Positions 35,437 through 42,033 of a stretch of DNA of 64,000 nucleotides are shown here, in pieces. Source of the DNA: Ramlibacter agri. Its GTDB lineage: Bacteria; Pseudomonadota; Gammaproteobacteria; Burkholderiales; Burkholderiaceae_C. The DNA is taken from the NCBI RefSeq assembly GCF_012927085.1, contig NZ_JABBFX010000004.1, positions 248,001-312,000 of the forward strand, written 5' to 3'. Under the pieces are notes generated by a model. That model saw nothing but the letters and a program-made list of their open reading frames with translations. It searched no databases and was not told the origin of the DNA. The stretch's first letter is position 1. Each line of letters starts with the position of its first letter. The translations under genes were made by a program, and so were the position numbers.

Positions 35437-38400
35437 ATGGAAGTTCTGGCGAAGCTGCCCGCCACGGACCACCGCGATGGTGGTGACCTGAAACTCGTTC
35501 TGAAGGCGCTGTCGGCCTTCCGCCGTGGCGAGCAGGGCGTCACGCTGCCGACCGAATGGGACGGCGTCTTCGGCAAGATCGCCGCCGAGTTCAACGATCT
35601 CTCGTCCCAGTCCTCGCGCACCCACTCCCGCCTGAAGGGCCTCGCGAACGGGCCGCATGCCGGAGCCCGCGCCGGCCGCCGGCTCGGTGACGAGAAGCTC
35701 ACCGGCTTCTGGCAGGAGAACGTCGCCAGCGTCAACAACCTGCTGGACGACGTGGAGGGCTCGGCGGAGCGCACCCGCACGCTGCTGGCGGCGCTGACGG
35801 AACTGAAGAAGGGCAACCTCCAGACCGAACTGCCGCACGACTGGACCGGCCTGTTCGGCAAGGTCGCCGATGCCTTCAACGACGTCGTCGCCGAGAACGT
35901 GCGCATGTCGCAGGAACTGGCGCGGCTGTCGCGCGTGGTCGGCAAGGAAGGCAAGCTGAAGGAGCGCGCCGCCATGCCCAGCGCCGGCGGCTTCTGGCGC
36001 GACTCGGCGGAATCGATCAACTCGCTGATCTCGGACCTGGTGCACCCCACGTCCGAAGTGGCGCGCGTGATCGGCGCCGTGGCCCAGGGCGACCTGTCCA
36101 AGTCCATGGCTCTCGAGGCCGATGGCCGGGCACTGGAAGGCGAGTTCCTGCGCACCGCGATGACCATCAACAAGATGGTGCAGCAGCTGGGGACCTTCTC
36201 CGCCGAAGTGACGCGCGTGGCGCGCGAGGTGGGCACCGAGGGCAAGCTGGGCGGCCAGGCGGAAGTGCAGGGCGTGGCCGGCACCTGGAAGGACCTGACC
36301 GACTCCGTGAACTCCATGGCCGGCAACCTGACGGCGCAGGTGCGGAACATCGCGGAGGTGACCAAGGCCGTGGCGGCCGGCGACCTCTCGAAGAAGATCA
36401 CCGTGGACGTGAAGGGTGAAATCCTCGAACTGAAGAACACCATCAACACCATGGTGGACCAGCTGCGCTCCTTCGCATCGGAAGTGACGCGGGTGGCGCG
36501 CGAAGTGGGCACCGAAGGCAAGCTCGGTGGCCAGGCCGACGTGCAGGGCGTGGCCGGCACCTGGAAGGACCTGACCGAGTCGGTGAACTTCATGGCCGGC
36601 AACCTCACGTCGCAGGTGCGGAACATTGCCGACGTGACGAAGGCGGTGGCCGCCGGTGACCTGTCGAAGAAGATCACCGTGGACGTGAAGGGCGAAATCC
36701 TGGAGCTGAAGAACACCATCAACACGATGGTGGACCAGCTGCGAAGCTTTGCGTCGGAAGTGACGCGCGTGGCGCGTGAAGTGGGTACCGAAGGCAAGCT
36801 CGGTGGCCAGGCCGACGTGCAAGGCGTGGCTGGCACCTGGAAGGACCTGACCGATTCGGTGAACTCGATGGCCGGCAACCTGACGGCGCAGGTGCGGAAC
36901 ATCGCGGACGTGACGAAGGCGGTGGCCGCCGGTGACCTGTCCAAGAAGATCACGGTGGACGTGAAGGGCGAAATCCTGGAGCTGAAGAACACCATCAACA
37001 CGATGGTGGACCAGTTGCGATCCTTCGCCTCGGAAGTGACGCGCGTGGCGCGCGAGGTGGGCACCGAAGGCAAGCTCGGTGGCCAGGCCGACGTGCAGGG
37101 CGTGGCGGGTACCTGGAAGGACCTGACCGACTCCGTGAACTCGATGGCCGGCAACCTGACGGCGCAGGTGCGGAACATCGCGGAAGTGACGACCGCCGTG
37201 GCGGCCGGCGACCTGTCCAAGAAGATCACCGTGGAGGTGAAGGGCGAAATCCTGGAGCTGAAGAACACCATCAACATCATGGTGGACCAGCTGTCCTCCT
37301 TCGCTTCCGAAGTGACGCGGGTGGCCCGGGAAGTGGGCACCGAAGGCAAGCTCGGTGGCCAGGCCGACGTGCAGGGCGTGGCCGGCACCTGGAAGGACCT
37401 GACCGAGTCGGTGAACTTCATGGCCGGCAACCTGACGTCGCAGGTGCGGAACATCGCCGACGTGACCAAGGCCGTGGCGGCCGGTGACCTGTCGAAGAAG
37501 ATCACCGTGGACGTGAAGGGCGAGATCTCCGAGCTGAAGATCACGATCAACACGATGGTGGACCAGCTGTCCTCGTTCGCCTCGGAAGTGACGCGGGTGG
37601 CGCGGGAAGTGGGTAACGAAGGCAAGCTCGGTGGCCAGGCCGATGTGCAAGGCGTGGCCGGCACGTGGAAGGACCTCACCGACTCCGTGAACTCGATGGC
37701 CGGCAACCTGACGGCGCAGGTGCGGAACATCGCCGACGTGACGAAGGCGGTGGCCGCCGGTGACCTCACCAAGAAGATCACGGTGGACGTGAAGGGTGAG
37801 ATTCTCGAACTGAAGAACACCATCAACACGATGGTGGACCAGCTGCGGTCCTTCGCCTCGGAAGTGACGCGCGTGGCGCGCGAGGTGGGCACCGAAGGCA
37901 AGCTGGGTGGCCAGGCCGACGTGCAGGGCGTGGCCGGCACCTGGAAGGACCTGACGGACAACGTGAACTTCATGGCCGGCAACCTCACCTCGCAGGTGCG
38001 GAACATTGCCGACGTGACGAAGGCCGTGGCTGCCGGTGACCTCTCGAAGAAGATCACCGTGGACGTGAAGGGTGAGATTCTCGAACTGAAGAACACCATC
38101 AACACGATGGTGGACCAGCTGCGGTCCTTCGCCTCGGAAGTGACGCGCGTGGCGCGCGAAGTGGGTACCGAAGGCAAGCTGGGCGGCCAGGCCGATGTGC
38201 AAGGCGTGGCGGGTACCTGGAAAGACCTGACCGATTCGGTGAACTCCATGGCCGGCAACCTGACGGCGCAGGTGCGGAATATCGCGGAGGTGACGACTGC
38301 CGTGGCCGCGGGCGACCTGTCCAAAAAGATCACCGTGGACGTGAAGGGTGAAATTCTCGAACTGAAGAACACCATCAACACGATGGTGGACCAGCTGCGC

Positions 38401-41400: not shown

Positions 41401-42033
41401 GGCTTCGCCGGCGCCGACCAGCGCGACCTGCGGCGCGGCATCGCCGCCCAGGCCAGCATCGGGCCGGTGCCGCTGGTCCTGTACCGCGGCCCGGGCAGCC
41501 GCAACGGCTGGCACTCCGACGACGGCATCACGGTGCACGAGGTGGAAAGCGGCGCGCCGCTGTTCGACGCCACGCTGATCGCGCTGCACCGCAGCCTGGC
41601 GCGGCTGCCGGAGGTGAAGCGCAACGTGATCGACAACGTCTACGAATCCACCAAGCCGCTGGCCGGCAAGCGGGTGCTGATCGTGGACGACGACATGCGC
41701 AACATCTTCGCGCTGGCCACCGTGCTGGAGGAGCACGGCATGGACATCGTCTGGGCCGACAATGGCCGGGAGGCGATCAACCGGGTGGCCAACGACCCCG
41801 GCATCCAGGTGGTGCTGATGGACATCATGATGCCGGAGATGGACGGCATGGCGACCATGAAGGAGATCCGCAAGCTCCCGCAGGGCCGCAACCTGCCTAT
41901 GATTGCGGTCACGGCCAAGGCCATGAAGGGCGACCGCGAGAAGTGCATCGAGGCAGGCGCCTGGGACTACCTCGCCAAGCCGGTGAACACGCCGGACCTG
42001 CTGGCGGTCCTGCGCGCCTGGCTCCAGCAATAG
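35437..42033 (+). CDS. Giant soluble poly-HAMP hybrid histidine kinase (group III/Nik1-like)
   Basis: Hybrid sensor kinase of 2,198 residues without membrane segments. Order: two divergent HAMP-like units (about residues 20-265), eleven 92-residue HAMP units (about 269-1265), a GAF domain (about 1280-1430), a coiled coil, HisKA with His1516 ([10 protein letters not shown]), HATPase ([26 protein letters not shown]), a receiver with Asp1864 (LDMHLPDM), a receiver-like region without a clear phospho-acceptor, and a final receiver with Asp2129 ([10 protein letters not shown]). HAMP arrays of this kind define fungal osmosensing group III kinases such as Nik1/Os-1, which probably derive from bacterial relatives. 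ATG at 35437 starts [12 protein letters not shown] second hybrid kinase follows with no gap, suggesting a phosphorelay. The stimulus is unknown. Confidence 0.9.
36241..39276 (+). repeat. Eleven tandem 276-base HAMP-coding repeats
   Basis: The segment encoding GKLGGQ recurs at 36241, 36517, 36793, 37069, 37345, 37621, 37897, 38173, 38449, 38725 and 39001, always exactly 276 bases apart. Units 1-9 are nearly identical at the base level; units 10 and 11 diverge ([14 protein letters not shown] in the last). Two subtypes, [11 protein letters not shown] and [11 protein letters not shown], mostly alternate, suggesting growth by two-unit blocks. The region is coding and likely prone to copy-number change by recombination. 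Confidence 0.95.

Follow-up and report, generated by a model that had tools for sequence, protein, structure and literature searches.

To which family does a long bacterial kinase built on eleven HAMP units belong, and which protein does it work with? The question is raised by a 64,000-nucleotide stretch of Ramlibacter agri DNA (contig NZ_JABBFX010000004.1, positions 248,001 to 312,000; here called the window), in which the gene at 35437..42033 on the + strand, with an ATG start, encodes a poly-HAMP soluble hybrid histidine kinase of 2,198 amino acids. The original prediction, made from the letters alone, regarded this protein as a bacterial member of the fungal group III (Nik1/Os-1) kinases. 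Our analysis of the sequence and its relatives indicates that it is probably a bacterial hybrid kinase of the poly-HAMP-GAF sort, like OsaA and AskA-AskB, forming one half of a kinase-receiver cassette. What is new here is a conserved partner receiver beside poly-HAMP kinases; the kinase itself is of a known kind, and bacterial poly-HAMP kinases had already been described in print (PMC7643160, PMC9739842).

The partner gene (42034..44118, + strand) starts right after the kinase stop codon (TAGATG) and encodes a protein of 694 amino acids with the Pfam order REC-GAF-HisKA-HATPase-REC. Its receiver at 42088..42423 (+ strand) is one of a family that accompanies poly-HAMP kinases on their downstream side. 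The genome (7.2 Mb, 13 contigs) holds a second poly-HAMP kinase on another contig, with 2,386 residues, 14 units, three intact receivers and also a GAF domain by Pfam, and this paralogue has its own receiver-kinase partner (L009:6425-15255, contig C3). Both poly-HAMP kinase genes of the genome are directly followed by a receiver-kinase gene.

Using either of these two partner receivers as query, we counted partners at 46 complete poly-HAMP loci (L023 and L118, with no complete gene, were excluded), 44 of which had 700 bases downstream (L032 and L123 had less); 50 ordinary hybrid kinase loci with equal DNA served as controls. An adjoining open reading frame on the same strand matched the partner receiver with at least 115 bits at 35 of the 44 loci, two others gave weak matches (45.8 and 58.9 bits), and seven gave none. 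At a line of 100 bits this corresponds to 35/44 poly-HAMP loci against 0/50 controls (Fisher 9e-18, relatedness ignored), a line that was chosen after both sets of scores had been seen. An 85-bit line, chosen after the poly-HAMP scores were seen and before the controls, was passed by two of the 50 controls; a nearby receiver was present at 19 control loci, the best of them reaching 88.2 bits. A tblastn search on the same strand, up to 2 kb downstream and with at least 100 bits, found the partner at 39/44 poly-HAMP loci and 0/50 controls (top control, 87.8), adding L115 and L122, where it adjoins the kinase, L010, where it lies one gene on, and L124, where it lies about 1.6 kb on. The control loci, with 0/50 at 100 bits, ruled out the partner as a generic neighbour. 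The 39 partner-bearing loci belong to Pseudomonadota, Actinomycetota, Acidobacteriota, Bacteroidota, and Deinococcota. When loci were clustered at 85% core identity, the partner was present in 25 of 33 clusters under the adjoining rule and in 28 with the tblastn finds; at 75%, the counts were 17 and 19 of 24 clusters. At the Deinococcus deserti locus, a CheR methyltransferase gene (L010:10904-11737) stands between kinase and partner.

In a receiver tree of 119 rows and only 126 columns, from which seven near-duplicate partners were omitted, 33 partner receivers fell into one clade with a single outsider, P0126 (Shimodaira-Hasegawa-like approximate likelihood ratio test, SH-aLRT, 98). The identities of kinase cores and partners were correlated (Mantel r 0.59, 0/9999 permutations), to which shared host ancestry could add. 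The two partner receivers of this genome are 48% identical to each other, whereas same-type partners in other species are 63-93% identical to the partner of this gene and 67-78% to that of the paralogue, which argues that kinase and partner are inherited together. The output that follows the partner receiver varies: HisKA-HATPase-REC, PAS-HisKA-HATPase, an HWE kinase or, in actinobacteria, a short receiver protein.

Three features of the bacterial Osa/Ask kind were present, namely membership in the core clade described below, a GAF domain between array and kinase, and a downstream partner receiver. Within the core clade, one Streptomyces locus has, in order, a poly-HAMP kinase with GAF by Pfam, a 288-residue receiver protein, and FtsK; we take this locus to be osaAB, in which ftsK follows osaB. 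The R. agri locus is joined by Streptomyces relatives in both clades, that of the cores and that of the partner receivers. OsaA and OsaB of Streptomyces coelicolor (SCO5748/5749) resemble the pair studied here in that OsaA is described as a soluble hybrid kinase that carries over ten HAMPs and lies next to a receiver protein (PMC9739842). The Osa type differs in having one receiver (in the Streptomyces relative), in the length of OsaA (1,829 residues), and in its partner, a short receiver protein rather than the receiver-kinase found here. AskA and AskB of Myxococcus xanthus and Amb07 of Sorangium are long poly-HAMP kinases explicitly likened to Nik1 (PMC7643160). Like R. agri, the Ask system has two long poly-HAMP hybrid kinases with several receivers and a hybrid kinase directly downstream of one of them: askC lies directly downstream of askB, and a two-hybrid assay detected an interaction between the third receiver of AskA and the receiver of AskC (PMC7643160). 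The partner arrangement here resembles askB-askC, although in M. xanthus a partner is described beside askB, whereas here both poly-HAMP genes have an adjoining one. No paper joining Osa and Ask or announcing a common partner receiver was found in the open literature.

Several observations weigh against a cassette of this kind. The partner is missing at five of the 44 loci (L030 from Nostoc; L036, L037, L040 and L076 from actinobacteria), and P0126, the outsider in the partner clade, is an ordinary hybrid kinase of the non-poly-HAMP type whose N-terminal receiver falls there. Deletion of osaA is reported to change little (PMC10117811), so that OsaB may receive its principal input from elsewhere than the kinase. 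The link to Ask is one of published architecture and gene order.

The kinase gene itself conformed closely to its first description. The reading frame was open throughout, a GGGGGA stretch stands immediately upstream of the ATG, and a hydropathy scan found no membrane helix in the protein (highest 19-residue Kyte-Doolittle mean, 1.52), in agreement with a soluble protein of 2,198 residues. The closest named proteins are from Ramlibacter and Caenimonas, with the kinase region 91% identical to that of R. pallidus. The Pfam scan, which had been proposed as a check for HAMP, GAF and HisKA, matched all three: HAMP in 11 stretches (E 6e-128), HAMP_2 in 11, GAF_2 at residues 1291-1428 (39307..39720; this and the following features are on the + strand), HisKA at 1507-1574 (39955..40158), HATPase_c at 1622-1744 (40300..40668), and Response_reg in two stretches. 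The sequence placed His1516 in HisKA, as predicted. Between GAF and HisKA lies a charged, Gln-rich linker (residues 1429-1506, 39721..39954), which we read from the sequence as probably a coiled coil. Pfam and an alignment of the C-terminal tails located receiver 1 with Asp1864 (40864..41226, edges approximate) and receiver 3 with Asp2129 (41674..42012), again where they had been predicted, and the Asp of both is kept in 32/32 aligned tails. Receiver 2, between them, was placed by the tail alignment alone (41269..41601, edges approximate); it reads VVLED, with Glu1987 at the position expected for Asp, which bears out the phospho-acceptor loss reported for this region. The normal receiver 2 motif is lost in 11/11 rows of this gene's lineage, the Asp column being replaced in six and kept in five; the six rows of paralogue type have the domain intact, and a small number of further rows show changes in it (L015, L016, L028). 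In this lineage, receiver 2 may be a pseudo-receiver or a product of decay. No HPt domain, of the sort through which the fungal group III phosphorelay reaches a HOG-type pathway, was detected by Pfam in the kinase or partner proteins, nor was one present in the window; the 20 HPt matches of the genome are all at other places, none linked to this kinase.

Eleven HAMP units of 92 residues had been predicted, and their number, spacing, and HAMP identity were upheld by repeat finding, motif spacing, and profiles (residues 253-1264, 36193..39228, + strand). The motif GKLGGQ occurs 11 times at a spacing of exactly 92 residues, and Tandem Repeats Finder returned a single array (36163-39132, period 276, 10.8 copies, 87% matches, no indels). 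The prediction required correction, as each unit looks like a pair of HAMP domains and residues 1-252 are largely HAMP-like too. One half of the unit matches Pfam HAMP, and the other is divergent. A profile comparison aligned the two halves across 31 columns (hhalign E 2.4e-4, with a probability of only 43.9%). Structure predictions of 2.3 units placed helices about 46 residues apart in two models; these were of low confidence (mean predicted local distance difference test score, pLDDT, 50.0 with one sequence and 49.1 with 28), and only the helix spacing was noted. In the N-terminal part (35437..36192, + strand), diverged HAMPs were assigned with our own profiles, an alignment to PDB 9trk, and inspection by eye. 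The profiles, built from inner units of the poly-HAMP family including those of this protein, matched residues 157-201 (E 1.2e-11) and 206-251 (E 2.7e-9); two further HAMPs, at about 23-60 and 112-150, were recognized by eye only. Over the whole kinase, the profile of the half that resembles Pfam HAMP matched 12 times and that of the divergent half 13 times, one of the latter matches being weak (80-103, E 0.07-0.8); one more, at 1245-1263 (E 2.5), was dismissed as noise. The array therefore holds at least 24 HAMP domains, probably 27. Residues 107-367 align to 9trk, the solved structure of a histidine-kinase chain with a Gcn4 fusion, so the fold of the N-terminal end is probably no longer open. 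Besides 9trk and 9trj, solved HAMP chains include the Aer2 poly-HAMP (3LNR); unlike this kinase, Aer2 acts as a PAS/heme chemoreceptor and has five HAMPs. Divergent HAMPs and poly-HAMP chains were already known (PMC3570549).

The number of units had been thought remarkable, but eleven is not unusual for a bacterial poly-HAMP kinase. Among the 120 homologues listed, fragments included, counts ranged from 2 to 12, with 11 units in 20 and 9 units in 32; many of the shorter rows are fragments or have 3-6 units. Across 14 Burkholderiales genes, this gene and its 14-unit paralogue included, the number was 9-14, with a wider range elsewhere. Arrays were found in 14/100 genomes of the family (E 1e-20) and 21/299 of the phylum (E 1e-30), R. 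agri included in both; a search through L045, aimed at the phylum of M. xanthus, gave matches in 6 of 198 genomes. One array stretch in genome G534 (contig C14) contains a TAG stop, perhaps a broken copy or an error. Among the homologues listed, 743 of 748 intervals between units were 92 residues and the other five 184, where the pattern probably missed a unit; exceptions outside that set were 97 in L031 and 91 in L040. Chance or an assembly artefact is unlikely to explain the repeat, because the paralogue and the orthologues share its period. Units 1-9 are mutually 88-99% identical, and units 10 and 11 only 61-80% identical to the rest. At the DNA level, inner units are 89.7% identical within the gene, 84-86% identical to those of G096, G034, G099, G056 and Paraburkholderia, and 89-90% identical to those of G097 and Caenimonas; they differ chiefly by silent changes (mean nonsynonymous divergence, dN, 0.040; mean synonymous divergence, dS, 0.371). 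The end units 10 and 11 are 83-92% identical between genera against 70-81% within the protein. This pattern fits an exchange of inner units inside the gene with the end units held fixed. Concerted evolution everywhere was rejected, as the units of the paralogue follow position (82% identity within the array, 91% at the same position in a sister species).

The relation to the fungal kinases was examined on the array, the kinase core, and the architecture. The first four units of Neurospora crassa Nik-1 are 63-73% identical to units 1-10 of this kinase, and the bacterial array is, judged by sequence, clearly related to the fungal one; this part of the group III assignment stood, GAF insert and receiver number spoke otherwise, and the core leaned away. 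The core trees compared bacterial poly-HAMP kinases with Nik-1 and other fungal kinases and with ordinary hybrid kinases sampled among the matches listed in the scan. In the tree of 78 rows, the 37 bacterial poly-HAMP rows formed one clade (SH-aLRT 100) spanning Actinomycetota, Pseudomonadota, Acidobacteriota, Cyanobacteriota, Bacteroidota and Deinococcota, and the six fungal rows fell among ordinary hybrid kinases. For the Nik-1 core, identity reaches 53.7% with the closest of the ordinary bacterial hybrid kinases compared, does not exceed 45.3% with any poly-HAMP kinase from bacteria, and is 42.7% with the kinase studied here. The best trees thus separated the groups that the proposed core tree had been expected to bring together. 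When fungal and bacterial poly-HAMP rows were joined, the approximately unbiased (AU) test gave p 0.263 for the core alone (59 rows, ten long-branch and nine near-duplicate rows left out; clade support for bacterial poly-HAMP 100/100) and p 0.031 for the core plus last receiver (57 rows, L040 and P0166 also out). As two such tests were run, the latter is only moderate evidence. The tree evidence leans toward separation of the two cores without settling it. In architecture, the last unit lies 295-422 residues from the His in 37/37 bacterial proteins (333 in this kinase, with a GAF match) and 109-110 in 6/6 fungal ones. Of 59 further records, 38 had a countable unit before the His, with a gap of 106-110 in 23, of 198-202 in ten, where one unit was probably missed, and of other values in five; the named records with units among the 59 are from fungi, amoebae and relatives. 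Fungal group III proteins (Nik-1/Os-1, Bos1) share with this kinase the 92-residue di-HAMP unit and the HisKA-HATPase-receiver order. They have 4-5 units in six ascomycetes counted and up to eight in one early fungus, against eleven here; for Bos1, six HAMPs are published (PMC3418262). The GAF-sized insert is present in none of the six fungal proteins, and one receiver domain was found in Nik-1, against a GAF domain, two Asp receivers and a decayed one here. This kinase shares the kind of array but fails group III membership on architecture, and its core leans away.

It could still be argued that the protein as a whole shares its descent with the fungal group III kinases, as a genuine bacterial member or as their direct outgroup, and that the array by itself senses osmotic conditions. 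The unit identity to Nik-1 speaks for such descent, the fungal-bacterial pairs fit the bacterial regression of unit on core identity (mean residual -2.1, standard deviation 4.35), so that no history of its own has to be assumed for the array, and the core-only AU test leaves a single clade unrejected. We nevertheless consider this descent unlikely, given the AU result with the last receiver added (the second of the two tests), the grouping of the Nik-1 receiver, too, with ordinary hybrid kinases, and the GAF-sized insert and additional receivers of the bacterial proteins; with GAF constant, sensing through the array alone is not to be taken for granted. A mosaic origin of Nik-1, with a bacterial array on a foreign kinase, gained nothing from the rate argument, as the fungal pairs sit on the same regression; that leaves the tree argument, which falls short of deciding the matter. 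Bacterial poly-HAMP kinases should accordingly be read with caution and not as bacterial Nik1.

The constancy of the GAF domain lends itself to another reading, in which sensing falls to GAF, with the array serving as an adjustable spacer or to stabilize the dimer. The GAF-sized gap is kept in all 37 bacterial proteins while the unit number varies from 9 to 14 in the 14 Burkholderiales genes. A mere spacer fits poorly, however, with the constraint on the units (between inner units, dN/dS does not exceed 0.2 in this gene; the paralogue has 0.44) and with a spacing that hardly slips (743/748), and we hold this reading to be possible but rather doubtful. More improbable still is that the array serves in the main as a scaffold or as a platform for binding DNA or the nucleoid, and that kinase output comes second. 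AskB, in electrophoretic mobility shift and pull-down assays, and AskA, in pull-down only, bound DNA of the mrpC promoter (PmrpC) in vitro (PMC7643160), and the receptor FrzCD has been linked to nucleoid arrays through its di-HAMPs (PMC12077210). This protein, too, gave weak matches to SpoIIID and HTH_6, like those reported for AskA/AskB, but each had 0 stretches passing alone; they look like repeat-boosted artefacts and were rejected as evidence of DNA binding. A typical unit (residue 437) has 11 K/R against 12 D/E by eye count.

For the Osa/Ask reading, which we prefer, a signalling path can be proposed. HAMP pairs would form a long dimeric rod, whose HAMP states would be shifted by a cytoplasmic change, whether osmotic, dehydration- or growth-state-related. 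The shift would travel via the GAF domain and the linker to the kinase, where His1516 would phosphorylate Asp1864 or Asp2129; by receiver-receiver docking or phosphotransfer, the signal would then reach the partner receiver, and the partner's own kinase module would carry it onward. We infer a conserved kinase-receiver cassette of the Osa/Ask type that may serve osmotic or dehydration responses, a role suggested by association only: OsaB is required for osmotic adaptation (PMC10117811), sporulation induced by glycerol and by ambruticin involves the Ask kinases, the trehalose/glycogen genes treZ and malQ lie just past the cassette in two Rhizobium plasmids (L019, L020), and R. tataouinensis forms drying-resistant cysts (PMC3164672, PMC6848086), the word HAMP being absent from the main text of PMC3164672. 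More tentatively, and with somewhat less confidence than we would need to favour it, the poly-HAMP kinase and its partner receiver may be one ancient, phylum-spanning cassette uniting Streptomyces Osa and Myxococcus Ask, with a fixed kinase-receiver core and exchangeable outputs. Inner units would be gained, lost and, in some lineages, homogenized while the end units stay fixed, and array length would then be an adjustable element in a cytoplasmic sensor of osmotic change or dehydration. Naming a likely receiver turns a list of odd long kinases into a testable system. The OsaA cascade has been called unclear (PMC9739842) and the Ask mechanism is said to need work (PMC7643160); the conserved neighbouring receiver is a candidate for both.

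Some neighbouring genes were also recorded. Pairs of DUF5985 genes stand just past the cassette in Novosphingobium (L011:13696-14234) and Azospirillum (L015:14754-15301). In the window itself, 46367-47893 encodes a MerR-like helix-turn-helix with a weak adenylate/guanylate cyclase-like match at the C-terminal end.

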